A DNA stretch of 64,000 nt from NCBI GenBank assembly GCA_028292405.1, contig JAQGMJ010000028.1:145962-209961 (forward strand), given 5' to 3'. The notes beneath the pieces were generated by a model. It did not search any database. It worked only from the letters and a program-made list of their open reading frames with translations, and was not told where the DNA came from. The position numbers and the translations under genes are program-made. Of this stretch, positions 17,866 to 61,100 are shown one piece after another (the stretch's first letter is position 1; every line of letters starts with the position of its first letter). Source of the DNA: Betaproteobacteria bacterium (GTDB lineage: Bacteria > Pseudomonadota > Gammaproteobacteria > Burkholderiales > JAEUOS01).

Positions 17866-18636
17866 TTATTCCGACGCTGTCGCCGGCTTCACCGCGTCGT
17901 CGCCGATCAGCTTGCCGCTGCCTTCCAGGCGCTGCGCCACGCGGGCGACGTTGGCCATCGACATGCGGTGCGCCTCGATCCAGCGCAGGTAGCCGGCGCG
18001 GAAGAATTCGAGTACGCGGGCGTCGTCCAGCGCCGCCAGCTTGGCCTCGTCGATCATCCACAAGCCGCGCAGCACCTGCTTCTGCCCGTTCTTTTCGATG
18101 GCGATCACCTTCGACTCCAGCAGGCCCAGCTCGGCCATGCGGTTGGCGAACTCGGCGGTGCGCTGCATTTCCGCGTGATAGGCGCGCAGGAAGGTCAGCA
18201 CCCGTTCCAGGTACTCGGACTCCTTGCCGTCGTCGTTGAACAGCGCGGTGCCCTTTTCCGTGTTCATCCCGGCATAGGTCTCGTCGACGCACACCAGGAA
18301 ACGATCCTTTTCCTGGGCGCCTGCCAGTATGAAAGGATAGCGGCGCGCGAAAGCCGGTATGTAAGTGCCCGCCTGCCAGACACCCTTGTCGTCGACGAAC
18401 AGGTTTTCGTTGTCGCGCAGGCCGAGCAGCGCGGCAACGTGGAAGGAGCCCGGCGCCTCGCCGACGAAGACGATCGGGTAGTCGCGCGCGACATCGGTGA
18501 ACTCGGTGCTGGCCACCGGCAGCGCGTTGGTCTTGGCCGCGAACTTGTAGTGGTCGGGCTCGATTTCGATCTTCAGCTTCTGGTGGTTCTCGCGATTCAG
18601 TGCGACGGCACGTTCATAAAATACGCTGCTGGACAT
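17866..18636 (-). CDS. SapC-family protein
   Basis: A 256-aa protein with the SapC-family pattern. It starts MSSSVFYERAVALN and contains FTDVARDYPIVFVG and a C-terminal helical region rich in Ala and Leu. SapC was named from the S-layer (surface-array) locus of Campylobacter, and homologues are common near exported surface proteins and secretion genes in Proteobacteria. There is no signal peptide, so it is probably cytoplasmic. Its neighbourhood with a type I outer-membrane protein and a giant adhesin fits a role in surface-protein production, but its biochemical function is not known. The start is the ATG of MSSSVF; the other frames in this region are shadows. Confidence 0.85.
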   Translation of the reverse strand: MSSSVFYERAVALNRENHQKLKIEIEPDHYKFAAKTNALPVASTEFTDVARDYPIVFVGEAPGSFHVAALLGLRDNENLFVDDKGVWQAGTYIPAFARRYPFILAGAQEKDRFLVCVDETYAGMNTEKGTALFNDDGKESEYLERVLTFLRAYHAEMQRTAEFANRMAELGLLESKVIAIEKNGQKQVLRGLWMIDEAKLAALDDARVLEFFRAGYLRWIEAHRMSMANVARVAQRLEGSGKLIGDDAVKPATASE

Positions 18637-18751
18637 ACGTTCCTCGAATGTGATGTTGACCTTTGCGAAGCGGGACTGTGTGTCAATTTGGTGCGCAAGT
18701 CAACAGGCCGGCAATGCGAATCGTGATGCATCGCACATTCCACGCCCGGCC

Positions 18752-18783
18752 ATGACAGCGCAATGACAGCGCAATGACAGCGG
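18752..18783 (+). repeat. 11-bp tandem repeat (ATGACAGCGCA x3)
   Basis: Two exact copies of ATGACAGCGCA are followed by a third with an inserted G (ATGACAGCGGCA), in the gap between the sapC start and the VOC/ABC operon. The length of one helical turn per unit suggests a possible protein-binding array, or simply slippage. Confidence 0.6.
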
Positions 18784-18926
18784 CATTGCATTGATCCACT
18801 TTGACAGTGTTCCCTCCTTTGGTGCGTCTTGCGCACGGCGGCGCCCTGCGTTTGGGAAACCATGGCGCCATCCCGTGCCATGCCCCGACGGGCGTCTGGC
18901 TCGACCGCTTTGCCTTCCCAGTGAAA

Positions 18927-18941
18927 TGGCATGGCGATTGC
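18927..18941 (+). promoter_or_regulatory. Sigma-54 promoter for VOC/ABC operon
   Basis: TGGCAT-GGCGA-TTGC matches the -24/-12 consensus TGGCAY-N5-TTGC with exact GG-N10-GC spacing. Predicted transcription start is near 18,953, about 42 nt before the VOC start codon. The sequence is almost identical to the atzF promoter (TGGCAT-GGGGA-TTGC). About 90 bp upstream lies GTGCG-N5-CGCAC, a possible activator site. Confidence 0.75.
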
Positions 18942-18994
18942 TGAATGGACACCATGCTCTTGCATCCCAGTCCGCATCCCTTACATCCATCCAT

Positions 18995-19498
18995 ATGATC
19001 ATCCACGGCCTATTCCACGTCGCCATCAAGACCAACGACCTTGAGGCCACGCGCTTTTTCTACTGCACGCTGATGGGCTTGAAGGAAGTCGCCCGCCCCG
19101 ACTTCGGCTACCCCGGCGCGTGGATCGCCTGCCCGCAACCGGGCGGTGCGGCGATCATCCACATCTACGCCGGCGGCCCCGCGCTGGGCCACGACGGCAA
19201 GACCGTCTCCGGCACCGCCGCCATCGACCACCTCTCGCTGGCCTGCTCCGGCTTTCACGAGTTCCGCGAACTGGTCGAGCGCAACGGCCTGCCTTACCGC
19301 GAGTTCCTGGTGCCCGGCACCACGCTCTGGCAACTCTTTGTCTACGACCCTTCCGGCGTGCAGCTCGAACTCACCTTCGAAGGCAGCGTCGAGAGCGGCC
19401 GCGCCCCCGACATGTCGCCCGGCCGCGCCTACGTCGCCGGCGCCAGTTTTTTCGATCCCGTCCCTTACATCAAACTCGGCAAAGGAGTCACCGCATGA
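18995..19498 (+). CDS. VOC-family (glyoxalase/dioxygenase-like) protein
   Basis: A 167-aa vicinal-oxygen-chelate protein. It begins MIIHGLFHVAIKTND, with the paired beta-alpha-beta-beta-beta modules of the family. Candidate metal ligands are His in FHVAIKT (about residue 8), His in AIDHLSLAC (about 82) and Glu in VQLELTFEG near the end. The ORF track begins far upstream, but this ATG starts the domain exactly and lies about 40 nt after a sigma-54 promoter. Its stop overlaps the start of the next gene (ATGA), so it is translationally coupled to the ABC importer. It may act on the imported compound or its product; substrate is unknown. Confidence 0.85.
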   Translation: MIIHGLFHVAIKTNDLEATRFFYCTLMGLKEVARPDFGYPGAWIACPQPGGAAIIHIYAGGPALGHDGKTVSGTAAIDHLSLACSGFHEFRELVERNGLPYREFLVPGTTLWQLFVYDPSGVQLELTFEGSVESGRAPDMSPGRAYVAGASFFDPVPYIKLGKGVTA

Positions 19499-20502
19499 AC
19501 CGCACCAAGGCCCAGGCACTCTCGTTGCAGTCCTTCCCGCGCCGCCGCCTGATGCTCGGCGCCATGGCCGTCTCGGCGATGGGCGTGGTGCGCTCGGCGC
19601 GCGCCGAAGACAAGTTGAAGATCGGCGTCTTTCCCTCTTCCTCTTCGGTGCCGATCTACGTCGGCATCGAGCGCGGCTACTTCAAGGAAGTCGGCATCGA
19701 GATCGAGGCCGTACCGATGAACACCCATCCGATCCAGGTGCAGGCGATCGTCGCCGGCGACATCGACGGCAGCTCCAACCTGGTGACCCTGGAAGGCGCC
19801 AACATCAACGGCCGCCGCCCCGGCACCCTCTCCTACATCTCGCTCAACGGCCAGAACGCGCAGTACATCACCGAGCAGTTCGTGGTCAAGCCCGGCAGCA
19901 CCGCCAAGACCATCAAGGACCTGAAGGGCGCGAAGATCTTCTGCGCCCCCGGCCCGGCCAACCTCGGCGCCGCCAAGGCCATCCTCAAGAGCGTCGGTCT
20001 GGAAGAAGGCCGCGACTACACCATGACCGAGCAGGGCATGGGCGTGCACATGGGCGCCATCCAGGGGGCCAACTTCGACGCCGGCTATACGCTCGAACCC
20101 CTCGGCACCATGATGATCAAGCAGGGCGTGGCCCGCCGCCTCGAAGGCGGCGTCATCGCCACCCACCTGCTGGGCCGGGTGGAAGCACAAGCCTATGCGG
20201 CCGGGGGACTTCTCTCCGGCAAGCTGCTGACGGAAAAGCCCGAGGTCGCCGCGCGTTATGCCAAGGCCTGGGCCAAGAGCGTGAAGGACGCCGGCAGCGA
20301 CCCGAAGGCGCGCGAATACCTGACCAAGTTCAACGTGCCCGCCGACCTGGTGCAGGCCGTGCCGCTGGCCAAGTTCACCATGATCAAGGATTTGAGACCG
20401 GCCGATTACGCCGACTTCCAGAAGTTCGTCGACCTCGGCGTCGACATGGGCGTGGTGAAGGACAAGATCGACGTCAAGACCATGCTCAAGTCCTATACCT
20501 GA
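19495..20502 (+). CDS. NMT1/THI5-like ABC transporter substrate-binding protein (Tat-type signal)
   Basis: A 335-aa periplasmic solute receptor of the NMT1/TauA/SsuA type. The true start is the ATG overlapping the VOC stop. The N-terminus carries PRRRLMLGAMAVSAMG, which could be a twin-arginine signal, with cleavage near SARA-ED. The mature protein opens LKIGVFPSSSSVPIYVGIERGYFKEVGIEIE, characteristic of the family. The receptor feeds the adjacent ATPase and permease. Family members bind sulfonates, pyrimidines, nitriles and other small organic molecules. The sigma-54 promoter upstream suggests a nitrogen-containing ligand, which is inference. Confidence 0.9.
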   Translation: MNRTKAQALSLQSFPRRRLMLGAMAVSAMGVVRSARAEDKLKIGVFPSSSSVPIYVGIERGYFKEVGIEIEAVPMNTHPIQVQAIVAGDIDGSSNLVTLEGANINGRRPGTLSYISLNGQNAQYITEQFVVKPGSTAKTIKDLKGAKIFCAPGPANLGAAKAILKSVGLEEGRDYTMTEQGMGVHMGAIQGANFDAGYTLEPLGTMMIKQGVARRLEGGVIATHLLGRVEAQAYAAGGLLSGKLLTEKPEVAARYAKAWAKSVKDAGSDPKAREYLTKFNVPADLVQAVPLAKFTMIKDLRPADYADFQKFVDLGVDMGVVKDKIDVKTMLKSYT

Positions 20503-20517
20503 ACACCATCGGCAGCA

Positions 20518-21354
20518 ATGAACACCCCGATCGACCTGATGAGCGCCATCACCGGCCCGGCCGCTAGCGGGCCCAGCGACCACCGCTGGTTTCCGCCGGG
20601 CACCCACATCACCGTGCGCGGCCTGACCAAGCGCTTCGGCGCCACCACCCTGTACGAAAACTTCAACCTCGACATCCCGCGCGGCCAGCTGATTTCGATC
20701 TTCGGGCCGAACGGCTGCGGCAAGAGCACCCTGATCAACATGATGTCGGGCATCTTGCCGATCGACGGCGGCGAGGTGCTGTTCGACGGTAAGGCGCTGC
20801 GCGACACGCGCATCGGCTACGTGTTCCAGAACTACCGCGAAGCCATGTTCCCCTGGCTGCGCGCGATCGACAACCTGCGCTATCCCCTCAAGTTCCTCAA
20901 GCTTTCCAAGGCGGAGAAGGACGCGCGGGTGGAAAGGATGATCGCGCGCTTCGACGTGAAGATCGACCTGCATCGCTACCCCTACGAGCTTTCCGGCGGG
21001 CAGCAGCAGATGGTCTCCATCATGCGCGCCCTCATCGTCGACCCCGAAGTGCTGTTCATGGACGAGCCTTTCTCCGCGCTGGATTACGAGATGACCCTCT
21101 TCATGCGCGAGCAATTGCAAAAGGTATTCATGGAAACCCGCACCACCACCCTCCTGGTCTCGCATGACCTTGAAGAAGCGGTGCACCTGGCCGACAAGAT
21201 TCTGCTGCTGACGCGCAAGCCCACGCATGTGGCCGACTACATTTCCTTCGATGCGCCGCGCCCGCGCGACACCGCGACCCTTTCCACTCCCGAGTTCGTG
21301 CGCGTCAAGGCGCACAGCCTCGAAGTGTTCCAGCGCGAGGTACGCAAGCCATGA
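20518..21354 (+). CDS. ABC transporter ATP-binding protein (TauB/SsuB type)
   Basis: A 278-aa ATPase subunit. Walker A is GPNGCGKST (about residue 63), the Q-loop is FQNYREAMFPW, the signature is LSGGQQQ (about 160), Walker B is VLFMDEP (about 180), and the switch His lies in LLVSHDLEEAVH. The length is typical for SsuB/TauB-like proteins, with about 30 extra N-terminal residues. It starts 15 nt after the receptor gene and its stop overlaps the permease start (ATGA), so all three subunits are one operon. Confidence 0.94.
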   Translation: MNTPIDLMSAITGPAASGPSDHRWFPPGTHITVRGLTKRFGATTLYENFNLDIPRGQLISIFGPNGCGKSTLINMMSGILPIDGGEVLFDGKALRDTRIGYVFQNYREAMFPWLRAIDNLRYPLKFLKLSKAEKDARVERMIARFDVKIDLHRYPYELSGGQQQMVSIMRALIVDPEVLFMDEPFSALDYEMTLFMREQLQKVFMETRTTTLLVSHDLEEAVHLADKILLLTRKPTHVADYISFDAPRPRDTATLSTPEFVRVKAHSLEVFQREVRKP

Positions 21355-22133
21355 AACCCTCGTTGAAAGAACACCTCCTCGCTCTCCTTGCCAAGCTGGC
21401 GCCCTTGTGGGGCGCGCTGGTGTTCGTCGCCTTGTGGTGGATCGCCACCAGCCTGAAGGTGATCGACCCGATCCTCCTGCCCTCGCCCGCCGATTCGGCC
21501 AAGGCGCTGTGGAAGGGCATGATGGGCGGCTCGCTGTGGCACGACTTCCTGCGCACTGTCACCCGCACCCTGCTCTCCTTCATCATCGCCGTGGCCATCG
21601 CGGTGCCGCTGGGCATCGTGCTCGGCTCTTCCGACAAGATCTACCGCGCGGTGGAATTCATCATCGACTTCTTCCGCTCCACCCCGGCCTCGGCGATGTT
21701 CCCCTTGTTCCTGGTGCTGTTCGGCGTCGGCGAGAAGACCAAGATCGCGGTGGCGGCTTTCGGCGCGGCGCTGGTGATCTTGTTCAACGTCGCCTACGGC
21801 GTGATGAACGCGCGCAAGCTGCGCCAGCTCGCCGCCCGCGTGATGGGCGCCTCGCGCATCGGCGTGCTGACGGATGTCACCTTCTGGGAGTCGATGCCGC
21901 AGACCTTCGTCGGCATGCGCTCCGGCGTCTCTCTCGCCCTGGTGATCGTCATCGTCGCCGAGATGTTCATCGGCTCCACCGACGGCCTGGGCCAGCGGGT
22001 GATCAACTCGCAAATGATCTTCGACATGCCCGAGATGTACGCCTCCATCTTCGCCGCCGGCGCGCTGGGCTACTGCCTGAACCTGCTGTTTCTTTCCATC
22101 GAGCGCAAGTTCGTCCACTGGGGCGGCAAGTAG
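21351..22133 (+). CDS. ABC transporter permease (TauC/SsuC type)
   Basis: A 260-aa inner-membrane permease with six or so hydrophobic segments, starting with LWGALVFVALWWIATSL. The EAA loop that docks the ATPase is the segment around AARVMGASRIGVLTDVTFWESMPQTFVGMRSG. The start codon overlaps the ATPase stop. As the last gene, it completes a VOC-receptor-ATPase-permease operon. The next gene is on the opposite strand 36 bases away. Confidence 0.93.
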   Translation: MKPSLKEHLLALLAKLAPLWGALVFVALWWIATSLKVIDPILLPSPADSAKALWKGMMGGSLWHDFLRTVTRTLLSFIIAVAIAVPLGIVLGSSDKIYRAVEFIIDFFRSTPASAMFPLFLVLFGVGEKTKIAVAAFGAALVILFNVAYGVMNARKLRQLAARVMGASRIGVLTDVTFWESMPQTFVGMRSGVSLALVIVIVAEMFIGSTDGLGQRVINSQMIFDMPEMYASIFAAGALGYCLNLLFLSIERKFVHWGGK

Positions 22134-22169
22134 CCGCGTCCAGGCCAACCCGGCCGCGCCAAGCCCGCA

Positions 22170-23033
22170 TCAAACCGGGCGCAGGTGCACCCACAGGTGC
22201 CAGCCGAGCGCCTTTTCCAGCGGCAGCGCGGTCACCGGCAGTGGCGGCGCGTGCATGAAGCGCTTGTAGGAGCGTACCACCTTGAAGCCGGAGAAGTCCC
22301 GCTCCACCTCGGCCAGGTCGTAGACCTTGGCGTAGGGATTGAGCGGGCCGTCGGTGTTGCGGTGGATGAAATTCTCCATCCGCAGGTACTTCCATAGTCC
22401 GACAGCGCGCGCGTTCGCCAGGTGCTGCCCGAGGATGCCTTGCTGCCCGAGGATGCCTTGCTGCTCGCGGCCCAGCAAATACAGGCCGAGCAAGCCGAGG
22501 CGCCGCACCAGGCTGATGGCCACCAGGTAGTTGAGCGACCAGCGCGCATAGAGCATCACCACCAGCTCGCCCTCGGGCTTGAGGATGCGGCGGATCTCGC
22601 GCTGCGCCGTGCGGATGTCCGGCACATGGTGCAGCACGCCGTGGCTGAACACCATGTCGAAGCTGCCGCTCTCGTAGGGAATCTGCAGCACGCTGCCCTG
22701 CTTGACCTCGCGGTGCGGCAGCTCGCGCAGCGACAGGCGCATCTGCACCCGCGTCACCGATTCCGGCGTCAGGTCCAGCCCAGACCAGATGGCGCCGCGG
22801 CGGATCAGCTGCTCCGAGTCGGCGCCCTGCCCCAGGCCGATCTCCAGCACGCTCTTGCCCTTGAAGTCGATGGCGTCCAGGCAGCCCAGGATGTGCCCTT
22901 CCTTCTCGTAGCGGAAGCGGTCGTAGTCGCGGAAAAAGGCCTCGTAGTCGCCGCGCCGCTGCTGCAGGCCGCCGACTTGCCAGTCGCCGCAGGGAAAGCG
23001 GTTCCAGAAATCCTGAATGTCTGACTCGTTCAT
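22170..23033 (-). CDS. Class I SAM-dependent methyltransferase
   Basis: A 287-aa methyltransferase. Motif I is [15 protein letters not shown] (about residue 62), followed by the acidic SGLDLTP and the later motif [17 protein letters not shown], a Methyltransf_11-like pattern. A hydrophobic stretch around [23 protein letters not shown] could touch the membrane. Next to it is a perfectly duplicated GILGQQ unit caused by an 18-bp tandem repeat. The substrate is unknown. It is convergent with the ABC operon and seems to be a single gene. Confidence 0.85.
22425..22464 (-). repeat. 18-bp tandem duplication inside methyltransferase gene
   Basis: CTGCCCGAGGATGCCTTG is present as two identical units followed by a partial third (CTGC). 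It is in frame and inserts a six-residue repeat (GILGQQ) in a helical region. Perfect identity suggests a recent or still-variable slippage event. Confidence 0.85.
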
Positions 23034-26854: not shown

Positions 26855-27970
26855 CTAGGCGGCCTTGGCCACCAGCGCGATCATGCCGCCGCCGGGCGGG
26901 CCCTGGTGCTCGTCGCCGCCGGAGACGAAGATGCGGGTGTCGGCGATGACCCCGGCGACGAGGCCGCCGACGGCGCCGCGGATGTGGCGCTGGGCGTTGA
27001 TGTCGCCGTCCTGCCACATGGTGTGGCGCTGGCCGCGCACGTAGCCGCTGGCGTCGGGCTCGCATTTGATCATGGCAGCGGCGATTTGCCTTAGACCCGT
27101 CGCCGTATTGTCGCCAAGAGCGGCGATGCCGAGATCGGCCAGGCAGGCGTAGATGGCGTTGATGTCGAGGGCATCGGTCATCGGGCGGTGGGCGATGACG
27201 TAGTCCGAATTCCAGGCGGCGGAGTTGCCCAGCACCATCACTTCGTTGACGGCGACCTCCACCCCGGAGGAGATGCTGGCGCGTTCGGAGAACCAGTCGA
27301 GGCGCGAGAAGAAGGCGTCTTCGCGGATTTGGCCGGGCGGCAGTTCACCCAGGGCAGCGGCGACGCCGAAGGCGCCGGCGACGCGTGTGTAGGCCATGGA
27401 TTTGTTGGGGTCGGTCGTCACGAGTTGCGCGCCGCGCGCTTTGGCTTCGGCGGCACGCTCGGTGGTGACGCAGGGGCCTTTGACTTGCACGAAGTGAACG
27501 TCGGCCGGGTCGGTGATTTTGGCTTGCGCCATGGCGGCGCGTACGGCTTGCGCGACGCTGTTCACATGCGCGATGCGGCCGAGGTCTTCGGGGGCCAGCA
27601 CGGGGGTGAAGGCGGTGCCGACGGCGAGGGTTTTTTTGCCGGTGGGGGTTTGCGCGATTGGTTGTGCCGCCGGGTCGACGCTGAAGACCACGTAATGCGG
27701 GGTGAGCACGCCTTCGGTGCCGCCGGAGAAAACGAAAATCACTTTTTCGCCGATGGCGTCCATGCTCTGGCCGAGCTTTTCGGCGAGCAGGAGCTTGAGG
27801 GATTGCGTGAGGTAGCCGCGGGTGAAGTCGTTGACCAGGCCATTGCCCTCGGTCTTGCCGAGCACGGCGACGATGTGGGCTGGGTTGACTTTTCCCGCGC
27901 TGATGGCGACGGCGAGTTCGGAGACGTCGCCGGGGTCGCGCATGGTGAAGCGGTGGACGGAGGCGCGCAT
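26855..27970 (-). CDS. Ring-opening amidohydrolase, AtzD/barbiturase family (divergent paralogue)
   Basis: A 371-aa member of the cyanuric acid hydrolase/barbiturase family, whose three similar domains each supply a Ser-Lys pair around one active site. Seen here: GKTEGNGLVNDFTR (about residue 38), [12 protein letters not shown] (about 85), HFVQVKGP, ASISSGVEV with VMVLGN, GQRHTMWQDGDIN, and C-terminal [14 protein letters not shown]. It differs from classical AtzD at several conserved spots: KGP for KCP, NKSMAYTRVAG for [11 protein letters not shown]. The start VHRFTM and the SSGVE segment look closer to barbiturase-type members, so its substrate need not be cyanuric acid. It follows the flavin monooxygenase gene by 25 nt and is surely co-transcribed. 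I infer that the monooxygenase makes, or acts near, a cyclic imide opened by this enzyme. Confidence 0.88.
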   Translation of the reverse strand: MRASVHRFTMRDPGDVSELAVAISAGKVNPAHIVAVLGKTEGNGLVNDFTRGYLTQSLKLLLAEKLGQSMDAIGEKVIFVFSGGTEGVLTPHYVVFSVDPAAQPIAQTPTGKKTLAVGTAFTPVLAPEDLGRIAHVNSVAQAVRAAMAQAKITDPADVHFVQVKGPCVTTERAAEAKARGAQLVTTDPNKSMAYTRVAGAFGVAAALGELPPGQIREDAFFSRLDWFSERASISSGVEVAVNEVMVLGNSAAWNSDYVIAHRPMTDALDINAIYACLADLGIAALGDNTATGLRQIAAAMIKCEPDASGYVRGQRHTMWQDGDINAQRHIRGAVGGLVAGVIADTRIFVSGGDEHQGPPGGGMIALVAKAA

Positions 27971-27995
27971 ACGTTTTACGGTTTCTCGTTACGGG

Positions 27996-29219
27996 TCAGG
28001 GGTAGGTCGAGATGTCGCGGTACAGGCGCTTGAGGTTTTCCATGTAGGGCGGCTCGAGCTTTTTTCGCGTGCCGGCGACCGGGTCGGCGCCGGCGAGCAT
28101 GGTGTCCGTCGAGTAGAGGGAGAACTCCATCACGAACTTGATGCGTTCGCGGCGGCGCTGCTCGACTTCTTCGAGCCAGGCGGGTACCTCGGCCGCGCCG
28201 CCGCCGGCATTTAGCTTGGCGGTGAGTAGGTCGGCGACCATGCAGGCGCCTTCGATGGCTTGCGTGGCGCCCTGCCCTAGCGTGGGCACCATGCCGTTGG
28301 CGGAGTCGCCGAGGAACATGACGCGGCCGCCGGGGTCGCGGAACAGGGCGGGCGACTCCTGCAGGCGCGACCAGTGGATGCTGGGCAGGTTGTTGCAGAG
28401 GGTGTCGACCAGCCAGGCGCATTGCGCCGAGAGCGGGCCGCCGGCGGGGGTGAAGGCGCGGCGAAAGGCAGCGGCGGTTTTCATCTCGTCTGGAATCGGC
28501 GCGCCGGGTTCGATCGGAAAAGCGCCGGAGACGTAGATGTGATCTTCCGGCACCCTGAAGCCGAGCATGCGGTTGGGGCCGTTGAACCATTGCTCGTAGT
28601 CTTCGACCAAGCCGCCGGAGGTGTTGGGCACCAGCAGGCGCAGGATACTCACGCCGACATGCTTGATGTCGGGCACGCCGCAGAGCGTCTGGCGCAGCAG
28701 GGAGTAGCGGCCGTCGCAGGAGATCAGCAGGTCGATGTCGTCGATGCGTTTGGCGGCGCCGTTCTGGGTGTATTCGATCCAGGTGTGGTCGAAAACGGCG
28801 CGGCCCGCGCCGCTAACTGCCGGGTCCGCATAGCCCACGCCGGTGACTTCGCAGCCGAACTGCACGCAGGGACCGGCTTCGTGGCGCAGCACGCGGTAGA
28901 GCTCGGACCAGCGGATGCGGATGCCGGGATTGTCGGCGACGTTTTTCAGCGGCAGGTCGAACAGCACGGTGCCGTCGGTGAGCGAGATGCGCCAGTCGTG
29001 CCAGAGGAAGCTCTCGGCGAGCACGGCGTCGGCCAGCGCCTGCGAGTGGCGCTGCAGCGCCTTCAGGCCGTTGGGGCCGATGTTGAGACCGGTGCCGGAT
29101 TCGGAGTGGTCGTCGGCCACCACCTGCTCCAGGCAACTCACTTCCAGGCCCGGCAGCGCCGCCAGCGCCCGCGCCACGATACAGCCCGCCACCCCCGCTC
29201 CCACCACTACGACTTTCAT
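27996..29219 (-). CDS. FAD-dependent monooxygenase (aromatic-ring hydroxylase type)
   Basis: A 407-aa single-component flavoprotein hydroxylase. Visible motifs are the dinucleotide fold VVVGAGVAGCIVARAL at the very N-terminus, the DG motif LLISCDGRYSLLRQ (about 170) and the FAD-ribityl GD motif VMFLGDSANGMVPTLGQGA (about 300). The start has GGAG 7 nt upstream. Family members use NAD(P)H and O2 to hydroxylate aromatic or heteroaromatic rings. The amidohydrolase downstream suggests a nitrogen heterocycle (a pyridine, pyrimidine or purine) as substrate. This context-based assignment is inference. The gene is divergent from the RND efflux operon. Confidence 0.88.
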   Translation of the reverse strand: MKVVVVGAGVAGCIVARALAALPGLEVSCLEQVVADDHSESGTGLNIGPNGLKALQRHSQALADAVLAESFLWHDWRISLTDGTVLFDLPLKNVADNPGIRIRWSELYRVLRHEAGPCVQFGCEVTGVGYADPAVSGAGRAVFDHTWIEYTQNGAAKRIDDIDLLISCDGRYSLLRQTLCGVPDIKHVGVSILRLLVPNTSGGLVEDYEQWFNGPNRMLGFRVPEDHIYVSGAFPIEPGAPIPDEMKTAAAFRRAFTPAGGPLSAQCAWLVDTLCNNLPSIHWSRLQESPALFRDPGGRVMFLGDSANGMVPTLGQGATQAIEGACMVADLLTAKLNAGGGAAEVPAWLEEVEQRRRERIKFVMEFSLYSTDTMLAGADPVAGTRKKLEPPYMENLKRLYRDISTYP

Positions 29220-38616: not shown

Positions 38617-39363
38617 TCAGGCCTGCTGCACCCGCGCGGTATGCAGCATGTGCAGCGTGATCTTGCGCACTTCGGCCTTGCTGGCATCGATGTGGCTTTT
38701 CAGCAGCATCTGCGCCTCGTCGGCCTTGCGCAGCAGGATGGCCTTGAGGATGCGCGCGTGCTCGTTGTAGGTGGCGTCGATGCGCGCGTCCTGGGTGAAG
38801 TCGAGGCGGCGGATGATGCGGATGCGCTCGGTGAGGTCGTGGTGGATGCGCGCCATTTCCTGGTTGCCGGTGGCCAGCACCAGGGCGCCGTGGAACTGTT
38901 CGTCCAAGGCAGCGACGCCGCGGCCGTCGGTCAGGCGTTCCGGCTTGGGCACCAGCCAGGAATTTTTAAGATCATCCAGGGTGGCGCGCTCGTCCATTTC
39001 GCACAGGCGCTTGACGGCGGCCAGTTCGAGGATGACGCGCACGTCGTATAGGTCCTCGAACTGCTGGAAGTCGAAGGGGCGCACGCGCCAGCCGCTGCGG
39101 AACATCACTTCCAGGTAGCCCTCGCGCTCCAGCAGGTACAGCGCCTCTCGCACCGGGGTGCGGCTGACCTGCATGCGCCCGGCAATCTCCGCCTCGGTGA
39201 AGCGGTCGCCGGGGAGCAGGACGAAATCGAAAATCTCCTGCTTGACGCGCTCGAACACGCGCGCGGCGAGGTTGGAGTCCTTGCCCCGGGGTTCGGTCTT
39301 CGCTTCGGTTTTCGGCGTCGTCTTGGCTTTGTCGGTCGGACGTTTGGCTAGAGTAGTCGTCAT
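38617..39363 (-). CDS. GntR-family regulator, FCD type (atz locus)
   Basis: A 248-aa transcription factor. A Lys/Thr-rich lead of about 30 residues precedes the winged helix (VFERVKQEIFDFVLLPGDRF, recognition helix VSRTPVREALYLLEREGYLEV). The C-terminal FCD ligand domain has the expected metal-site His pattern (DEQFHGALVLATGN, IHHDLTERIRIIRR, EHARILKAI). It is a close paralogue of the GntR in the receptor-deaminase operon, sharing the LLPGDRF and SRTPVREALY segments. It follows atzE by 142 bp in the same direction. I infer it controls the atzFGE promoter through the TTGTATACAT site. Confidence 0.9.
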   Translation of the reverse strand: MTTTLAKRPTDKAKTTPKTEAKTEPRGKDSNLAARVFERVKQEIFDFVLLPGDRFTEAEIAGRMQVSRTPVREALYLLEREGYLEVMFRSGWRVRPFDFQQFEDLYDVRVILELAAVKRLCEMDERATLDDLKNSWLVPKPERLTDGRGVAALDEQFHGALVLATGNQEMARIHHDLTERIRIIRRLDFTQDARIDATYNEHARILKAILLRKADEAQMLLKSHIDASKAEVRKITLHMLHTARVQQA

Positions 39364-41098: not shown

Positions 41099-42904
41099 TC
41101 AGGCCTTCGCCAGGCTGGCGAGATACGCGCGCCAGCCGCCGAAGGAGGAAATGTCAGTCGCGCCGGCCGCGGCGATGCCTTCGCAGACGAAGCCCTTGAC
41201 CCAGGCGCCGTCCTGCAATTGCACCGAGCCGATGGCCAGCGGCGGCGGCACTTCGGCGACAAAGGCGCCGAAGCTCTCCAGCGGCACGTCCCATAGCTCA
41301 AGCGCGATGGAAGCGCCGCCGTCGGCGCGCAGCATGCCCGGCTTGGGCGGCACCGTGCCCGGCAGGGCATAGAGGCGATAGGCCGGCGCGCTTAGCGCTT
41401 CGCCGGCGAAGCGCGCGCCGCGCGTGGTGAGCTGGTGGTTCAGCGGCAGGCCGCGGAGGTGGGCGCCGACTACTGCGATGCGAGCGTGGCCGGGGGCAGG
41501 CGGCGCAAGCGCCGATGTATCTTGCGCGGGCAGTTCCAGCCCGGTGGCGCCGAGCGGCAGGCCGGTGTCGTGCTGCCAGCGGTCGGCGAAGCCGACTAGG
41601 GCTTCGTCGTACCAGGCCGGCGCGATCAGGGTGATGCCGAAGGGCAGGCCATCATTGCGCATGGCGGCGGGCACGGCGATGGCGCAGAGGTCGAGCAGGT
41701 TGACGAAATTGGTGTAGGTGCCGAGGTGGCTGTTTTTCACCACCGGGTCGTCGTTCACTTCCTTGATGGTGTAGATGGTCGGCGCGCTGGGCACCAGCAG
41801 GGCGTCGATGTCTTTCCACACCGGGGCGGTCATGCGGCGCAATTCCTCGCGGCGGTAGTAGGCCTTGAAGGCATCGACCGCGCTGTAGGCGGTGGCGCCG
41901 GCGATCACCTCGCGCACCACCGGGTGGACGATCTCCGGGCGCTCGCGCATTACCGTTTCGATGGCGGCGTAGCGCTCGGCCACCCAGGGGCCGTCGTAGA
42001 GCAGCGCCGCGGTGGCGAGGAAAGGGGAGAGGTCGATGGAGCTGATCACCGCGCCCATGCGCTGCGCCCGCTCGACCGCCTGCTCGAACACGCGCTGCTG
42101 CTCGGCGTCGCCGAAAAATTCGAGCTGCGCGGGAATGCCCAGGCGCGGCGCGGCGCCGAGTGTCGCCGCGCCGGCGGCGGGGTGACGCGAATAGGTGTCG
42201 CCGGGGTCGAAGCCGCTGGCGGCGGCCAGCACTTGCGCGCCATCGGCGGCGGTGAGCGCGAAAATCGAAACACAGTCGAGCGAGCGGCAGGCCGGCAGCA
42301 TGCCGCGCGCCGACAGCCGCCCCACCGTCGGCTTGATGCCGACAATATTGTTGAAGCCCGCCGGGATACGGCCGGACCCGGCAGTATCTGTTCCCAAGGC
42401 AAAGCTCACCAGGCCGCGCGCCACCACCGAGGCGGAGCCGGAGCTGGAGCCGCCGGAGATGTACTCCGGCTTGAAGCTGTTTTTCACCGCGCCGTAGGGC
42501 GAGCGGGTACCGACCAGGCCGGTGGCGAACTGGTCGAGATTGGTCTTGCCGACGAGGATGGCGCCGGCGTCGACCAGGCGCTGCACCACCGCTGCGCTCT
42601 CGACCGGCATGAAGGCGAATTCCTTGCAGGCAGCCGTGGTGTGCATGCCGGCGTAGTCGATGTTGTCCTTGATCGCGAAGGGAACGCCGTAGAGCGGCAG
42701 GCCGGCGAGCGAGCCGCCTGCTGTGGCGCGGCGCTGCTCCAGCATTGCCACCTGGGCGGCGATGCCGGCGGCCGAGACGCGGGAGATCCAGGCGTTGTCC
42801 TCGCCGGCGGCGTCGCAGCGCGCCAGCACTTCTTGCATTGCCGTGGCGGGAGTGAGGGAGCCCGCAAGGTATTGCCGGCGCAGGGACGAAATCAGCAGGT
42901 TCAC
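41099..42904 (-). CDS. atzF: Allophanate hydrolase (AtzF-type)
   Basis: A 601-aa enzyme, nearly the length of AtzF from Pseudomonas sp. ADP. The N-terminal amidase domain has the catalytic Lys in PFAIKDNIDY, the serine loop ISGGSSSGSASVVARG and FALGTDTAGSGRIPAGFNNIVGIKP (short segment of the signature). The C-terminal domain (about 450-601, from HARIAVVGAHLRGLPLNHQL) is the allophanate-hydrolase-specific region that completes decarboxylation. I place the start at GTG (MNLLISS) with AAAGG upstream, because the extra 19 codons in the track cover the promoter. It splits allophanate to CO2 and ammonia, the last step of cyanuric acid, biuret or urea use. A sigma-54 promoter lies directly upstream. 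Confidence 0.92.
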   Translation of the reverse strand: MNLLISSLRRQYLAGSLTPATAMQEVLARCDAAGEDNAWISRVSAAGIAAQVAMLEQRRATAGGSLAGLPLYGVPFAIKDNIDYAGMHTTAACKEFAFMPVESAAVVQRLVDAGAILVGKTNLDQFATGLVGTRSPYGAVKNSFKPEYISGGSSSGSASVVARGLVSFALGTDTAGSGRIPAGFNNIVGIKPTVGRLSARGMLPACRSLDCVSIFALTAADGAQVLAAASGFDPGDTYSRHPAAGAATLGAAPRLGIPAQLEFFGDAEQQRVFEQAVERAQRMGAVISSIDLSPFLATAALLYDGPWVAERYAAIETVMRERPEIVHPVVREVIAGATAYSAVDAFKAYYRREELRRMTAPVWKDIDALLVPSAPTIYTIKEVNDDPVVKNSHLGTYTNFVNLLDLCAIAVPAAMRNDGLPFGITLIAPAWYDEALVGFADRWQHDTGLPLGATGLELPAQDTSALAPPAPGHARIAVVGAHLRGLPLNHQLTTRGARFAGEALSAPAYRLYALPGTVPPKPGMLRADGGASIALELWDVPLESFGAFVAEVPPPLAIGSVQLQDGAWVKGFVCEGIAAAGATDISSFGGWRAYLASLAKA

Positions 42905-42919
42905 GAAGCAAAAACCTTT

Positions 42920-42929
42920 ATGTATACAA
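42920..42929 (-). promoter_or_regulatory. Candidate GntR operator TTGTATACAT at atzF transcript start
   Basis: The minus-strand 10-mer TTGTATACAT, with palindromic core TGTATACA, spans the predicted start of transcription of atzF. The same 10-mer occurs upstream of the PrpD operon. FCD-type GntR proteins commonly bind TNGT..ACNA sites of this kind. Confidence 0.6.
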
Positions 42930-42939
42930 GATAGTTTAC

Positions 42940-42954
42940 GCAATCCCCATGCCA
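42940..42954 (-). promoter_or_regulatory. Sigma-54 promoter for atzFGE
   Basis: Minus strand TGGCAT-GGGGA-TTGC, with exact GG-N10-GC spacing. The predicted start site is near 42,929, about 25 nt before the GTG of atzF. It is a 14-of-15 match to the promoter of the VOC/ABC operon. Confidence 0.78.
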
Positions 42955-43079: not shown

Positions 43080-43137
43080 GTGCGCGTTTGCGTGCGCTTT
43101 ATGTCGCGCATCGCACCATGCACCGACCATTCGCACC
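43080..43137. promoter_or_regulatory. Cluster of NtrC-like half-sites between divergent sigma-54 promoters
   Basis: Two GTGC (43,080; 43,092) and three GCACC or GCAC half-sites (43,113; 43,120; 43,133) are packed in 58 bp, 100-185 bp from both divergent sigma-54 promoters, the normal range for an enhancer. No full TGCACC-N5-GGTGCA site is present, so activator identity is inferred. Confidence 0.4.
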
Positions 43138-43233
43138 AACATGGGGCGGGCGACTTCAATGCACGCAAAACCGGCGCGGACGCGGCATCAGCCGCCCATC
43201 TAGGATGCCAGATAGAATCCCAGTTGAACGGCT

Positions 43234-43248
43234 TGGCACTTTTGTTGC
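43234..43248 (+). promoter_or_regulatory. Sigma-54 promoter for receptor-deaminase operon
   Basis: TGGCAC-TTTTG-TTGC is a perfect match to the -24/-12 consensus, including a T-rich spacer. The predicted start is near 43,259, about 27 nt before the receptor ATG. Confidence 0.82.
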
Positions 43249-43285
43249 TCATCTCATGGGTCCGGCCAACCTGGGGAACCGTTCA

Positions 43286-44311
43286 ATGAAAATCCTGCCT
43301 CGCATCCTCGCCTGCCTGCTGCTGGCCGCCTGCGCCGCCACCGCGCAGGCGCAAAGTGCCGCCCCGACCAAAATCAAGTTCGTGCTCGACTGGAAATTCC
43401 AGGGCCTGCACGCCTGGTTCATCACTGCGGCCGAGAAAGGCTATTTCGCGCAGGAAGGGCTGGACGTGACCATCGACTCCGGCGACGGCTCAGCCGCCGC
43501 CGTGACCAAGGTGGCCACCGGCGCCTATGACGCGGGCTTCGGCGACATGAGCGCGATCATCCAGGTAGCGGCGACCTCGCCCGCCACCGCGCCGGTGGGC
43601 GTGTTCATGCTGTACAACCGTTCGCCCTTCGTCATCGTCTCGAAGAAGGACCACAACATCCTCAAGCCGAAAGACCTTGAGGGCAAGCTGCTGGGCAGCC
43701 CGGCCAACGGCGCCACCTACAAGCTGTTTCCCGCCTTCGCCAAGGCGGCGGGCATCGACGCCTCCAAGGTGAGGACCACCAACATCGCGGCCAACCTGCA
43801 GGAAACCATGCTGGTGCGCGGCGAGGTGGATTTTCTCGCCGCCTTTGTCAACACCATCTGGTTTTCCTTGAAGCCGCTGAAGGTGGACCCGGAGAAGGAC
43901 CTGAACCTGATCTACTTTGCCGACTACGGCATCGACCTGTACAGTAATGGCGTGCTGGTGTCGCAAAACCTGATCAAGAACAACCCGAACGCCGTCAAGG
44001 GCCTGGTGCGGGCGATCAACCGCGCGATGACCGATGTGCTGGCCAATCCGGATGCGGCGATCGAAGCAGTAGCCAAGCGCGATCCGCTGATCGACAAGGC
44101 CCTGGAGAAGGAACGCCTGCTGATGACTTACAAACTACTGATTGCCACGCCGGAAGCAAAGGAGCTGGGCATCGGCGACGTCAAGGACGAGCGCATGGCG
44201 CGCTCGATCAAGACGGTGGCCGAGGTCTACGGCCTGGCGACGCCGCCTAAACCGCAGGACGTGTTTTCGCGCGCCTTCCTGCCGCCGAAGGCGGAACGGA
44301 TGGTGCGCTGA
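43286..44311 (+). CDS. NMT1/THI5-like ABC substrate-binding protein (no own permease nearby)
   Basis: A 341-aa periplasmic receptor with signal peptide (ILACLLLAACAATAQA; the Cys might be lipidated, but an AQA-QS cut looks better). The opening KIKFVLDWKFQGLHAWFITAAEKGYF matches the NMT1/THI5 family that binds pyrimidine-like and other small ring compounds. The ATG lies at a proper distance from a perfect sigma-54 promoter. Its stop overlaps the deaminase start (TGATG). No ATPase or permease gene follows, so it may share the TauBC-like pair at 20.5-22.1 kb or one elsewhere. Candidate ligand: the heterocycle processed by the enzymes downstream. Confidence 0.9.
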   Translation: MKILPRILACLLLAACAATAQAQSAAPTKIKFVLDWKFQGLHAWFITAAEKGYFAQEGLDVTIDSGDGSAAAVTKVATGAYDAGFGDMSAIIQVAATSPATAPVGVFMLYNRSPFVIVSKKDHNILKPKDLEGKLLGSPANGATYKLFPAFAKAAGIDASKVRTTNIAANLQETMLVRGEVDFLAAFVNTIWFSLKPLKVDPEKDLNLIYFADYGIDLYSNGVLVSQNLIKNNPNAVKGLVRAINRAMTDVLANPDAAIEAVAKRDPLIDKALEKERLLMTYKLLIATPEAKELGIGDVKDERMARSIKTVAEVYGLATPPKPQDVFSRAFLPPKAERMVR

Positions 44312-45657
44312 TGGCAAGTTTGCTGATCAAGGGGGCGCTGGGCGCGTTGACGGGTGAAGCATCGCCGGCGGCGCGGCTGCCGGCCGTGGATGTGCGGGTG
44401 GCCGGCGGGCTGATCGAGGAGATCGCGCCGGCTTTGCAAGCACGCCCCGGTGAGAGCGTGCTCAATGCCGACGGCTGCGTGCTTTATCCAGGCCTGGTAA
44501 ACACGCACCATCATATGTTCCAGAGCCTGCTCAAGGGCGTGCCCGCGGGCATCAACGAGGGCCTGGGGCTGTGGCTGCGCGGCGTGCATTTGCCGCGCCT
44601 GCCGATTTTCGACGAGGAGATGGTGCGCGTGGGCGCGACCCTGGCACTGGTGCAAATGGCGCTTTCGGGCGCCACCACGGTGGCCGACCATTACTATTTG
44701 CATCATGCTGGCGCGGCGGGCGTGCTGTTCGAGGCGGCCGAGCAACTGGGCTTGCGCCTGGTGCTGTGCCGCGGCGCGGTGACGGTGAAGAGCGCCAATC
44801 CGGACTACCCGGACATCGTGCCGCCGGTGAGCTTCGATGCAATGTTGCGCGATATCGACGACCTGGCGGCGCGCTACCACGACCCGTCTGCCGATTCGCG
44901 GCGCCGGGTGGCGGTGGCGCCGCTGACGCCGACCTATTCGGTAACGCCGGCCGAACTCACGGAACTGGCTCGCTTTGCCCGCGCCAAGGGGCTGCGCATG
45001 CACACCCATCTTTCCGAGACGCTGGACTACATCAGCTATACGCGCGAGAAGCACGATTGCCTGCCGGTGCAGTTCATGGCGGAGCACGAGTGGCTGGGGC
45101 GCGACGTCTGGCTGGCGCACATGGTGCATCTGGCGCCGGAGGAAGTCGCGATGGTCGCGGCCAGCGGCACCGGCATCGCCCATTGCCCCACCAGCAACGC
45201 GCGCCTGGGCAGCGGCATCGCGCCCCTGCCCGCTTATACGCAGGCGGGCGTTTCGGTGTCGCTGGGTGTCGATGGCCCAGCCTGCAGCGAGGCCAGCCAC
45301 ATGCTGGACGAGGCGCGCATGGCCTGGCTGATCCATCGCGCGGCCAGCGGGCCGAAGAGCACCACGGTGGAAAACATCGTGCACGCGGCGACCCGCGCCG
45401 GTGCAGTCAATCTCGGCCTCGACAATGTCGGGTTGCTGAAACCCGGCATGGCTGCCGACCTGGTGGCTTTCGAACTCGAAGGGCCGGCTTACTGGGGCCA
45501 GCACGACGCGCTGGCCGCTCCTCTGATCACCGGGCATGCGCGGGTACGGCATTCGCTGGTGGGCGGCCGCGCGGTGGTGCGCGATGGCCTGCTTCCTGCA
45601 ATCGACCTGGAGAAGTTGCGCCACGACGCCGCCGCGGCGGTAGCGAAACTGCACTGA
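44311..45657 (+). CDS. TRZ/ATZ-family amidohydrolase (deaminase; 8-oxoguanine deaminase/AtzB-like)
   Basis: A 448-aa metal-dependent aminohydrolase of the amidohydrolase superfamily. Metal and catalytic residues appear in order: NTHHHMFQSLLKG (about residue 68), HTHLSETLDYI (about 230), WLAHMVHL (about 270) and LGVDGPACSEASHM (about 320). The mononuclear-metal pattern matches hydroxyatrazine/8-oxoguanine/guanine-type deaminases that release ammonia from a ring amine. In an s-triazine setting it could convert ammeline or ammelide towards cyanuric acid; 8-oxoguanine to urate is an alternative. It is translationally coupled to the receptor upstream. The substrate is inferred, the family is firm. 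Confidence 0.87.
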   Translation: MASLLIKGALGALTGEASPAARLPAVDVRVAGGLIEEIAPALQARPGESVLNADGCVLYPGLVNTHHHMFQSLLKGVPAGINEGLGLWLRGVHLPRLPIFDEEMVRVGATLALVQMALSGATTVADHYYLHHAGAAGVLFEAAEQLGLRLVLCRGAVTVKSANPDYPDIVPPVSFDAMLRDIDDLAARYHDPSADSRRRVAVAPLTPTYSVTPAELTELARFARAKGLRMHTHLSETLDYISYTREKHDCLPVQFMAEHEWLGRDVWLAHMVHLAPEEVAMVAASGTGIAHCPTSNARLGSGIAPLPAYTQAGVSVSLGVDGPACSEASHMLDEARMAWLIHRAASGPKSTTVENIVHAATRAGAVNLGLDNVGLLKPGMAADLVAFELEGPAYWGQHDALAAPLITGHARVRHSLVGGRAVVRDGLLPAIDLEKLRHDAAAAVAKLH

Positions 45658-45716
45658 GCCCATACCGGCGCCATATCGAACCTGCCTTGCCCTCCTCCAC
45701 CGCCCACTCCCCCTCC

Positions 45717-46451
45717 ATGCCCGCCACTCCCCTTCACGCCCAGCGCCCGCGCGCCGTGTCCGCCCCGCGCCGCTCCCTGGCCGATGCGATCTACGAGCAG
45801 CTCAAGTCCGAGGTGTTCGACTTCCGCCTGCTGCCGGGCGACCGCTTTTCCGAGTCCGAACTCGCCGAGCGCCTGCACGTGAGCCGCACGCCGGTGCGCG
45901 AGGCGCTCTACCGGATGGAGCGCGAAGGCTATATGGAGGTGCATTTCAAGAGCGGCTGGAGCATCTGCCAGATCGACTTCGCCCAGTTCGAGAATCTCTA
46001 TGACTTGCGGCTGATCCTCGAATCCGAGGCGGTACGGCGCATCTGCCAGATGCCGGAAAACACCGAGCTGCAGCGCCTGGCGCAGCTCTGGCTGGTGGCG
46101 CCGGAGGAGCGCGTGCACGACAGCGCGCGCATCTCGAAAATGGACGAGAGCTTTCACTCGACGCTGGTGGAAATCGCCGGCAACCCGGAGATCAGCCGGG
46201 TGCACCACGAGATCACCGAGCGGGTGCGGATCATCCGCCGGCTGGGGTTTTCCGGGCCGGAGCGGGTCGGCAAGTCGTACGACGAGCACGGCGCGATTCT
46301 CAAATACATTTTGCGCAACCGCGCCGACCAGGCGGTGATGCTGCTGAAAAGCCACATCGAGCTTTCCAAGGCGCAAGCGCGCGAGATCACTCTGCACCAT
46401 CTTTCGGAGGCGCGCCAGCGTTTGCGTCCACGCAGGCTCAAGGTGGTGTGA
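45717..46451 (+). CDS. GntR-family regulator, FCD type (deaminase operon)
   Basis: A 244-aa regulator. The winged helix covers IYEQLKSEVFDFRLLPGDRF and the recognition helix VSRTPVREALYRMEREGYMEV; the FCD domain has DESFHSTLVEIAGN, VHHEITERVRIIRR and YDEHGAILKYI with metal-binding His. It is a close paralogue of the GntR beside atzE. The ATG start is a choice, since the frame is open further upstream; it begins 59 nt after the deaminase stop and the Arg/Pro-rich lead is not conserved. It probably regulates its own operon or the shared divergent region. Confidence 0.88.
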   Translation: MPATPLHAQRPRAVSAPRRSLADAIYEQLKSEVFDFRLLPGDRFSESELAERLHVSRTPVREALYRMEREGYMEVHFKSGWSICQIDFAQFENLYDLRLILESEAVRRICQMPENTELQRLAQLWLVAPEERVHDSARISKMDESFHSTLVEIAGNPEISRVHHEITERVRIIRRLGFSGPERVGKSYDEHGAILKYILRNRADQAVMLLKSHIELSKAQAREITLHHLSEARQRLRPRRLKVV

Positions 46452-46488
46452 ACGCATTCGCAACAACGCTTTCTTACCGGGGCAGCAC

Positions 46489-47274
46489 ATGAACCTGCAA
46501 GACAAAGTAGCCATCGTCACCGGCCCGGCCAAGGGCATGGGCACCGACATCACGCTTACCCTGGCGCGGGCCGGCGCCGACCTGGTGCTGGCCGGCCGCG
46601 ACATGGCGGCGATCGCGCCGGTGAAGGAGCAGGTGGCCGCGCTCGGTCGGCGCGTGATCGCGGTGGCCTGCGACGTCACCCGCGAGGAAGACGTGGCCGT
46701 GCTGGCGAAGGAGGCGCTGATGCATTTCGGGCGCATCGACATCCTGGTCAATTGCGCCGGCGGCACCGGCACCATCGAGAAACCCGGCCACGAGAACACG
46801 GTGGAAGAGTTCGAGCAGATCCTCGACCTCAACATGAAGGGCTGCTGGCTCACCATGCGCGCCGTGCTGCCGACCATGATCGCGCAGCGCTACGGCAAGA
46901 TCGTCAACGTCGGCGGCACCTTCGGCATGCGCGGGCGCTCCGGGCGCATGGCCTACAGCGCTTCCAAGTGGGGCCTGCGCGGCATTACCAAGAGTACCGC
47001 CATCGAGGTCGGCACGCACAACATCAACGTCAACTTCGTCGCTCCCGGCATGGTCGAGGGCGAGCGCTTCAACACCAAGGTGATGCCGGAGAAGGCGAAA
47101 AAGCTCGGGCTTTCGCTGGAAGATGCGCGCAAGACTTTCGAGGCCGAGTACGCGCTGCGGCGGATTTCCACCGGGCAGGACATTGCCAACGCGGTGCTGT
47201 TTCTTGCCAGCGACATGTCGCGGCAAATTACCGGCGTCGATCTCCCGGTCGATGGCGGCTGGGCTGCGCTGTAG
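46489..47274 (+). CDS. Short-chain dehydrogenase/reductase (SDR)
   Basis: A 261-aa classical SDR with TGPAKGMG (cofactor-binding TGxxxGxG, residues about 12-19), NCAGG in place of NNAG, and the catalytic YSASK with the upstream Ser replaced by GGTFGMRG (VNVGGTFG), so the usual catalytic Ser is not obvious. The C-terminus DLPVDGGWAAL is standard. It could oxidise or reduce an intermediate of the pathway; the substrate is unknown. It follows the GntR gene by 37 nt and is the last gene before a strong terminator. Confidence 0.88.
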   Translation: MNLQDKVAIVTGPAKGMGTDITLTLARAGADLVLAGRDMAAIAPVKEQVAALGRRVIAVACDVTREEDVAVLAKEALMHFGRIDILVNCAGGTGTIEKPGHENTVEEFEQILDLNMKGCWLTMRAVLPTMIAQRYGKIVNVGGTFGMRGRSGRMAYSASKWGLRGITKSTAIEVGTHNINVNFVAPGMVEGERFNTKVMPEKAKKLGLSLEDARKTFEAEYALRRISTGQDIANAVLFLASDMSRQITGVDLPVDGGWAAL

Positions 47275-47310
47275 CAGGCAAAAGTAAAAACCTACTTTTG
47301 CCTGGTTTTA
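47275..47310 (+). terminator. Strong intrinsic terminator after SDR
   Basis: CAGGCAAAAGTA-AAAACC-TACTTTTGCCTG is a perfect 12-bp stem with 6-nt loop, followed by GTTTTAATT, directly after the SDR stop. It separates the deaminase operon from the next three genes. Confidence 0.88.
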
Positions 47311-47321
47311 ATTCGCAGGAA

Positions 47322-47343
47322 ATCGCTGGCAAAGCCAGTCGAT
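47322..47343. promoter_or_regulatory. Inverted repeat upstream of cyclic amidohydrolase operon
   Basis: ATCGCTGGC-AAA-GCCAGTCGAT is near-perfectly symmetrical with one extra base in the right arm. It sits about 70 bp before the start codon of the amidohydrolase, a typical place for an operator. No clear -35/-10 or sigma-54 match was found in the 104 bp that follow the terminator. Confidence 0.5.
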
Positions 47344-47413
47344 TGCCTGGGTGAAGAGCAACGAAAAGGCGTCTCGAATTGGATTTCCGAAGCGCATGAA
47401 AGATGAGGTAGTG

Positions 47414-48835
47414 ATGCAACCCGTAGACATGCTGATCAAGAACGCCAAGGTCGTTTCGCCCGAATCCACCATCGACGCCTGCATCGCCATTCGCGGCGAA
47501 ATCATCGTCGCAGTCGGCGCCGAAGAGGCGATGCCGCCGGCCAAGCAGGTGATCGACGCCGGCGGAAAATACGTGATCCCCGGCGCGATCGACAGCCACG
47601 TGCATTTCCGCACGCCGGGCTACGAGTACAAGGAAGACTGGTATACCGGCACCGGCGCGGCAGCGCGCGGCGGCGTCACTACCGTGCTGGAGATGCCAAA
47701 CACCAACCCGCCCACCGGCACTGTCGCGGCGCTGACGCAAAAGCAGGAAATCGCGCATTCGCAGGCAGTGGTGGACTTCGGCATCTACGGCCTGCTCGAC
47801 GAGAACAACATCGACATACTCGAAGACCTGATCGCAGGCGGCGTCTCCGGCTTCAAGTGTTTCATGGGCAACACCTTCGGCAACCTGCCGGCGCCGTCCG
47901 ATGGCGCGATGCTCGAAGGCTTCGAAATCCTCGCGCAGCACGGCATGCGCTGCACCGTGCACGCGGAAAACCCCTCCATCATGGCGCGGCGCCAGGGCAA
48001 GATGGAAAAAGCCGGCCGCACCGATTCGATGGCCCACCTGGCTGCCCGCCCGGCGGTGTGCGCGATGGAAGCGGTGAGCCGCGCCGCCATTTTCGCCGAG
48101 TGGACCGGCGCGCGCCTGCACATTGCCCACAAGAGTTCGGCCGACGGCCTTTACTTCGTGCGCGACGCCAAGCGCCGCGGCGTCGACATCACGGTGGAAA
48201 CCTGCCCGCAATATCTGCTGCTTAATACGGACATGATGCAGGCCCTCGGCAAGGAGGGCGGCATCATGCGCGTCAACCCGCCGATCCGCGAGCCGGGGCA
48301 TGAAGAGCCGCTGTGGCAGGCACTGCTCGACGGCACCGTGGACATGATCGCCACCGATCACGCGCCGCACTCGCCTGAGGAAAAGACCCGAGCCAGCATC
48401 TGGGAATGCGACTGCGGCTTTCCCGGCGTGGAAACGCAAATGCCGTTGATGCTCACCGAAGTCAACAAGGGCCGCGCGACGATCAACCAGTACGTTGCCT
48501 GGTCCGCCGCCAACCCGGCCAAGGCCTGGGGCTTCTACCCGCGCAAGGGCGTGATCCAGGCCGGCGCGGAAGCCGACATCGTGATCGTCGACATGAACAA
48601 GGACGAGACCATCGACCAGGGCGGCCTGTTTTCCAAATCCAAGATCACCCCCTGGCACGGCCGCAAGATCAGCGCCAAGCCGGTGCTCACCATGGTGCGC
48701 GGCCGGGTGGTAATGCAGGACGGCGAAATCATCGCCGCCGCCGGCACCGGCCGCGCCGCACGCCAGCAGATGCCGGCGCCGAAGCCGCGCAACCTCGACA
48801 AGACCACCGCCGCCATTCTCGATTACAAGGCCTGA
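47414..48835 (+). CDS. Cyclic amidohydrolase (dihydroorotase/allantoinase/hydantoinase-like)
   Basis: A 473-aa binuclear-metal amidohydrolase. Metal ligands are intact: SHVHFRTPG (about residue 58), the carboxylated Lys in SGFKCFMGN (about 150), VHAEN, IAHKSS and [12 protein letters not shown] (about 318). The DHAPH pattern resembles dihydroorotase/allantoinase more than bacterial hydantoinase. I chose the ATG of MQPVDML, with GAGG 5 nt upstream; earlier codons overlap the operator-like repeat. No pyrimidine-synthesis genes are near, so a catabolic cyclic amide is likely. The next gene starts 2 nt after its stop, so it is coupled to the AtzD homologue. Confidence 0.88.
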
Positions 48836-48837
48836 CC

Positions 48838-49923: not shown

Positions 49924-49925
49924 GC

Positions 49926-61031: not shown

Positions 61032-61045
61032 ATTAAAGGGCCGTC

Positions 61046-61060: not shown

Positions 61061-61100
61061 CTTGTACTAATCAAAACAGCACCAAGCGGCGGACAACTCT

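Follow-up and report, generated by a model that had tools for sequence, protein, structure and literature searches.

Does an ABC importer whose predicted promoter nearly matches that of the allophanate hydrolase gene atzF belong to the same regulon, and does its pump also serve a second receptor encoded next to atzF? The question is raised by a 64-kb stretch of Burkholderiales DNA (64,000 nucleotides of contig JAQGMJ010000028.1, hereafter the window), where the exact 15-mer TGGCATGGCGATTGC lies at 18927-18941 (+), its -12 GC 53 bp before the start codon of the VOC gene that opens the importer operon, and TGGCATGGGGATTGC lies at 42940-42954 (-), before atzF. An earlier note on this DNA had drawn attention to the pair, and both the coordinates and the single mismatch between these elements, 24.0 kb apart, hold up: GG-N10-GC is kept in each, and each fits the sigma-54 -24/-12 core.

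When three or fewer mismatches are allowed, matches to the 15-mer do not exceed chance, with eight found versus 4.8 expected. TGGCAYN5TTGC, to which the importer element conforms with its GG and GC 10 bases apart, is found five times in the window versus 0.45 expected, a count reached in 0 of 100 shuffles, and 52 times genome-wide versus six for a reversed control pattern, which argues that the organism uses this motif. All five sites in the window lie on the correct strand just 5' of a start codon, 35-74 bp before atzF (42904), SBP2 (43286), GST (60942) and PhaZ (61101), and the 53 bp separating the importer core from VOC (18995) are compatible with sigma-54 promoter placement. A positive control within the window comes from the divergently oriented GST and PhaZ genes, whose motifs lie at 61016 (-) and 61046 (+) (region 61016-61061), because the PHB depolymerase/GST pair of Burkholderia cenocepacia was found experimentally to be sigma54-NtrC-dependent (PMC5491218). 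The genome carries rpoN (two matches), ntrC (two over the cut-off) and other full-length enhancer-binding protein homologues; the two rpoN and two ntrC genes (C46, C71 and C11, C89) are either true duplicates or reflect the 4% contamination of the assembly.

The gene descriptions given by the earlier note for the importer operon (VOC, NMT1-type binding protein, ABC ATPase and permease) were borne out, and the four genes are very probably carried on one transcript, since they overlap or nearly abut (Table 1). SBP1 is closest to SsuA-type structures, as judged from a structure model of moderate quality (pLDDT 72.8). In the DNA upstream of the core, GTGCGCAAGTC and its inverse GTGCGCAAGAC are the only two exact GTGCGCAAGWC matches within the window; this motif, defined post hoc, is not conserved in orthologous loci and was rejected as an activator site.

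Table 1. Predicted promoters, candidate sites and genes of the window discussed in the text
Feature	Position	Strand	Remarks
GTGCGCAAGTC	18691-18701	+	Exact GTGCGCAAGWC match
Three tandem copies of 11-bp unit GCAATGACAGC	18749-18782	+	Candidate upstream activator sites
GTGCGCAAGAC, inverse of GTGCGCAAGTC	18826-18836	-	Exact GTGCGCAAGWC match
Sigma-54 -24/-12 core TGGCATGGCGATTGCT	18927-18942	+	Predicted promoter of importer operon; score 17.3 (maximum 20.1)
VOC (glyoxalase/dioxygenase-fold) protein, operon gene 1	18995-19498	+	Orthologues beside SBP1 in L031-L038
SBP1, NMT1-superfamily periplasmic binding protein, SsuA-like branch	19495-20502	+	ATGA overlap with VOC
ABC ATPase	20518-21354	+	Each orthologous locus has one (~62-75% identical) beside or near SBP1
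ABC permease	21351-22133	+	ATGA overlap with ATPase gene; orthologues 65-76% identical, beside SBP1
AtzD1, ring-opening amidohydrolase (cyanuric acid hydrolase/barbiturase family)	26855-27970	-	Likely pathway partner of importer
FAD-dependent monooxygenase	27996-29219	-	Likely pathway partner of importer; orthologues in L031, L033-L038, L044-L046
AtzF, allophanate hydrolase, GTG start	41099-42904	-	
Sigma-54 core TGGCATGGGGATTGCG	42939-42954	-	Predicted promoter of atzF-atzG-atzE
NtrC-like box GCACCAACATGGGGC	43133-43147	+	atzF/SBP2 intergenic region; one mismatch in 10-base core
Sigma-54 core TGGCACTTTTGTTGCT	43234-43249	+	Predicted promoter of SBP2 and deaminase operon
SBP2, NMT1-superfamily binding protein, ThiY/THI5 (pyrimidine) branch	43286-44311	+	No adjacent ATPase or permease

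SBP1 orthologues are found in Comamonadaceae, Noviherbaspirillum, Pigmentiphaga and further Burkholderiales, and all four of the other genomes in the family to which the window belongs also have one. VOC orthologues alone were dropped as promoter anchors and SBP1 was used in their place: VOC and the importer genes are on opposite strands in the nearest genomes, so the region upstream of VOC is uninformative on the importer. We scored candidate elements with a -24/-12 matrix that approximates the published consensus; with this matrix a score of at least 13 arises by chance with a probability of 0.007 (0.7%) per 250-bp stretch. Strong elements precede the first importer or monooxygenase gene in L031 (19.7), L035/L036 (18.7), L038 (15.1), L044 (15.1), L045 (16.1) and L046 (13.3), that of L031 being counted with the caveat that it overlaps the 3' end of the upstream amidase gene. 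L033, L034 and L037 have a degenerate version, TGGCATGCAATCCGCT (score 12.2), with a degraded -12 and overlapping the end of the amidase gene, which was left out of the count; no element was found in L048, and none before the importer genes of L032. Gene order differs among the loci, so inheritance of flanking sequence does not by itself account for this recurrence. Motif enrichment, gene-proximal placement and recurrence in other Burkholderiales despite reshuffled gene order thus indicate that the element at 18927-18942 is probably a genuine sigma-54 promoter of the VOC-SBP-ATPase-permease operon, as the earlier note had proposed.

The genes that travel with the importer suggest what it may serve. 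Among 14 SBP1-ATPase-permease loci, the window included, a ring-opening amidohydrolase is found in 10, an FAD monooxygenase in 11 and VOC in 11. Five loci (L031, L033, L034, L037 and L038) carry ring-opening amidohydrolase, amidase, monooxygenase, VOC, SBP1, ATPase and permease in one run, with a LysR gene upstream (the L033 run among them) and AtzH downstream where examined; AtzH-like genes are likewise found next to the importers of L032 and L034. The monooxygenase and amidohydrolase of L044-L046 lie ~5 kb upstream of the importer, with a molybdenum hydroxylase gene between, and those of the window (26855-29219) lie on the other strand ~5 kb past the permease. The window pair has a weak sigma-54 match of its own (score 10.0) and may be under different control from the importer. 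AtzD1 scores above the cut-off of the cyanuric acid hydrolase family (NF052395, 469 versus 360) and has orthologues in L031, L033, L034, L037, L038 and L044-L046, with a distant homologue (39%) in L055; the window's genome holds nothing close to the third amidase of the orthologous operons (best 40%). This conserved gene neighborhood makes it most likely that the importer is dedicated to the monooxygenase/ring-opening amidohydrolase pathway, and its substrate would then probably be an N-heterocycle. In the literature searched we found no description of the monooxygenase/VOC/ring-opening amidohydrolase combination. Tentatively, the conserved set of ring-opening amidohydrolase, amidase, FAD monooxygenase, VOC and SBP/ATPase/permease, joined in Noviherbaspirillum by AtzH and LysR, could represent an undescribed pathway in which flavin-dependent hydroxylation would ready an N-heterocycle for hydrolytic ring opening, supplied by a dedicated sigma-54-driven importer. 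The 64-kb window holds two diverged ring-opening amidohydrolases of the cyanuric acid hydrolase family, AtzD1 (26855-27970) and AtzD2 (48832-49923), each of which is tied in relatives to a different NMT1-type receptor system.

The explanation we favor, and consider likely, is that of a sigma-54-driven importer for the neighboring ring-opening pathway rather than a pump shared with SBP2, the deaminase and atzF. It builds on four computed observations, namely the core motif, its genome-wide enrichment, the fact that it recurs 5' of orthologous importer genes, and the conserved neighborhood; the transcription of the importer, its activator and its substrate are what we infer from them. RNA polymerase with sigma-54 would sit in a closed complex at 18927-18942, with a predicted transcription start near 18953, and an enhancer-binding protein bound upstream (18640-18900) would hydrolyze ATP to yield one VOC-SBP1-ATPase-permease mRNA. 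A different activator may act at atzF. The importer would then bring in the compound on which the FAD monooxygenase/ring-opening amidohydrolase pathway encoded at 26855-29219 acts, probably an N-heterocycle.

The earlier note had instead placed the importer and the atzF/deaminase operons in one nitrogen regulon, with the importer's ATPase and permease powering both receptors, an arrangement that we now regard as improbable. Sigma-54 cores do precede both operons, and sharing of ATPases and permeases among receptors is known from other ABC importers, which counts in its favor. SBP2 indeed lacks a permease, there being none near it within the window. The two receptors are of one family at the level of the Pfam NMT1 domain that both contain, but beyond that they are only distantly related (pairwise BLASTP not significant, E 0.13; 18% identity by profile) and they fall on separate branches: SBP2 is nearest to thiamin-/pyrimidine-binding proteins of the ThiY/THI5 type (3ix1, 4nmy), and SBP1 is nearest not to these but to SsuA-type proteins. 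In relatives, SBP2 adjoins SDR, hydantoinase-type and AtzD2-type genes together with an ATPase and permease of its own (L118, L119, L120, L123 and L124, in some of which members are absent or cut short), and remoter SBP2 homologues likewise come with pump genes of their own. The relatives' pump genes are ~25-38% identical to those of the importer and belong to another ATPase/permease subfamily; ranked within the window's genome as stand-ins for them, the importer ATPase comes 11th and the importer permease 6th, which argues against the importer pair serving SBP2. The SBP2/deaminase/SDR/hydantoinase/AtzD2/M20 cluster at 43286-51104 is without the pump genes that relatives carry directly after AtzD2, and the genome (assembly 92.9% complete) holds no orthologue of the relatives' permease (best 36%), an absence that a shared pump would accommodate. 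Given a cluster without pump genes and a genome without a close permease orthologue, SBP2 appears to be an orphan receptor here.

As for a common regulon, which the note had read from the near-identity of the two 15-mers, no more than one base separates the members of 16 of the 1326 pairs that the 52 genomic sites form, and an unrelated site at C74:160480 is as near to the importer site as the atzF site is; near-identity was therefore discarded as evidence of co-regulation. The -24/-12 core is common to all RpoN promoters, and specificity comes from their activators. Of 29 relatives, 10 have a strong element (15.4-18.7) 5' of atzF, and the seven nearest are all among these 10. NtrC-like boxes (GCACC-N5-GGTGC, sought about 90-150 bp upstream of the promoter) occur with two mismatches 93-151 bp upstream of 6/11 atzF promoters, whereas the best site at the window's importer promoter has 4/12 mismatches, no better than shuffles, and the eight importer promoters gave one match, in L038, which abuts the promoter itself and is not usable. 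The box at 43133-43147 is suggestive only, the pattern being common in GC-rich DNA, and the contrast between atzF and the importer is likewise suggestive, with the loci related and the box weak in such DNA. Between the atzF start codon and its sigma-54 core lies a GntR-type palindrome, TTGTATACAT, at 42915-42930; a second TTGTATAC is found at 59166, and genes of the GntR family are present downstream of atzE (38617-39363) and within the deaminase operon. The lack of a suitably placed NtrC-like box at the importer promoters also weighs against a common sigma-54 nitrogen-stress response in which each receptor keeps its own pump, although GC-rich DNA makes such boxes difficult to score and NtrC, for example, could act at low-affinity or distant sites. 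We rate such a response as a strong contender, a little short of an even chance; it is compatible with the explanation we favor, from which it differs only in naming the activator. Speaking for it, other sigma-54 sites in the genome stand ahead of nitrogen-catabolic genes, AtzH-like and hydantoinase-like ones among them, as read from their translations, and in Pseudomonas sp. ADP the atzDGEHF operon and the ABC operon atzRSTUVW are both sigma-54-dependent and induced by nitrogen starvation (PMC6834077). Sigma-54 cores were also seen before an AtzH-like gene and a 2OG-Fe(II) oxygenase-like gene in L072 (G000:C35:836) and L083, and a 2OG-Fe(II) oxygenase resembling that genome translation has a sigma-54 core in L032 as well. 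Finally, the importer element might be a chance match, the operon being read from an unrecognized promoter. Its absence or degeneracy in some orthologues fits this idea, but we think it unlikely given the genome-wide enrichment, the correct position and strand and the recurrence in several lineages, and a search across 18600-22300 found no sigma-70-like promoter.

Pseudomonas sp. ADP already offers an example of heterocycle-ring-opening and ABC importer operons that are both under sigma-54, and Burkholderiales are known to carry atzG-atzE-atzH-type clusters with transporters (PMC6219798). Our sigma-54-driven importer for the ring-opening pathway is reminiscent of the former in joining a ring-opening amidohydrolase pathway to an ABC importer operon, with sigma-54 control predicted for the importer, and in the related amidase, AtzH and LysR genes of orthologous importer loci. 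Unlike in Pseudomonas sp. ADP, the importer is a three-gene NMT1-type system accompanied by a VOC gene, and the orthologous loci include an FAD monooxygenase; AtzT, found to bind guanine and 2-hydroxyatrazine, is a different receptor, and the window's importer operon has no identified LysR gene adjoining it. The receptor (NMT1/SsuA-like), ATPase and permease families are those of SsuABC/TauABC/NrtABC-type importers, but the scores fall far under the cut-offs for SsuA (SsuA_fam, 59.7 versus 163.5), TauB (NF008421, TauB-type ATPase, 163 versus 357) and TauC (107 versus 342), and the neighborhood is one of heterocycle catabolism, not sulfur.

Taken alone, near-identical sigma-54 cores are thus uninformative about a shared regulon. 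An importer without an assigned role is here given a probable real and conserved sigma-54 promoter, and the search for its substrate is redirected from the allophanate and deaminase operons to the neighboring ring-opening pathway. The monooxygenase/VOC/ring-opening combination is the part most worth following: the pathway recurs in Noviherbaspirillum pedocola, N. suwonense, N. soli and Pigmentiphaga litoralis, where it is directly testable.
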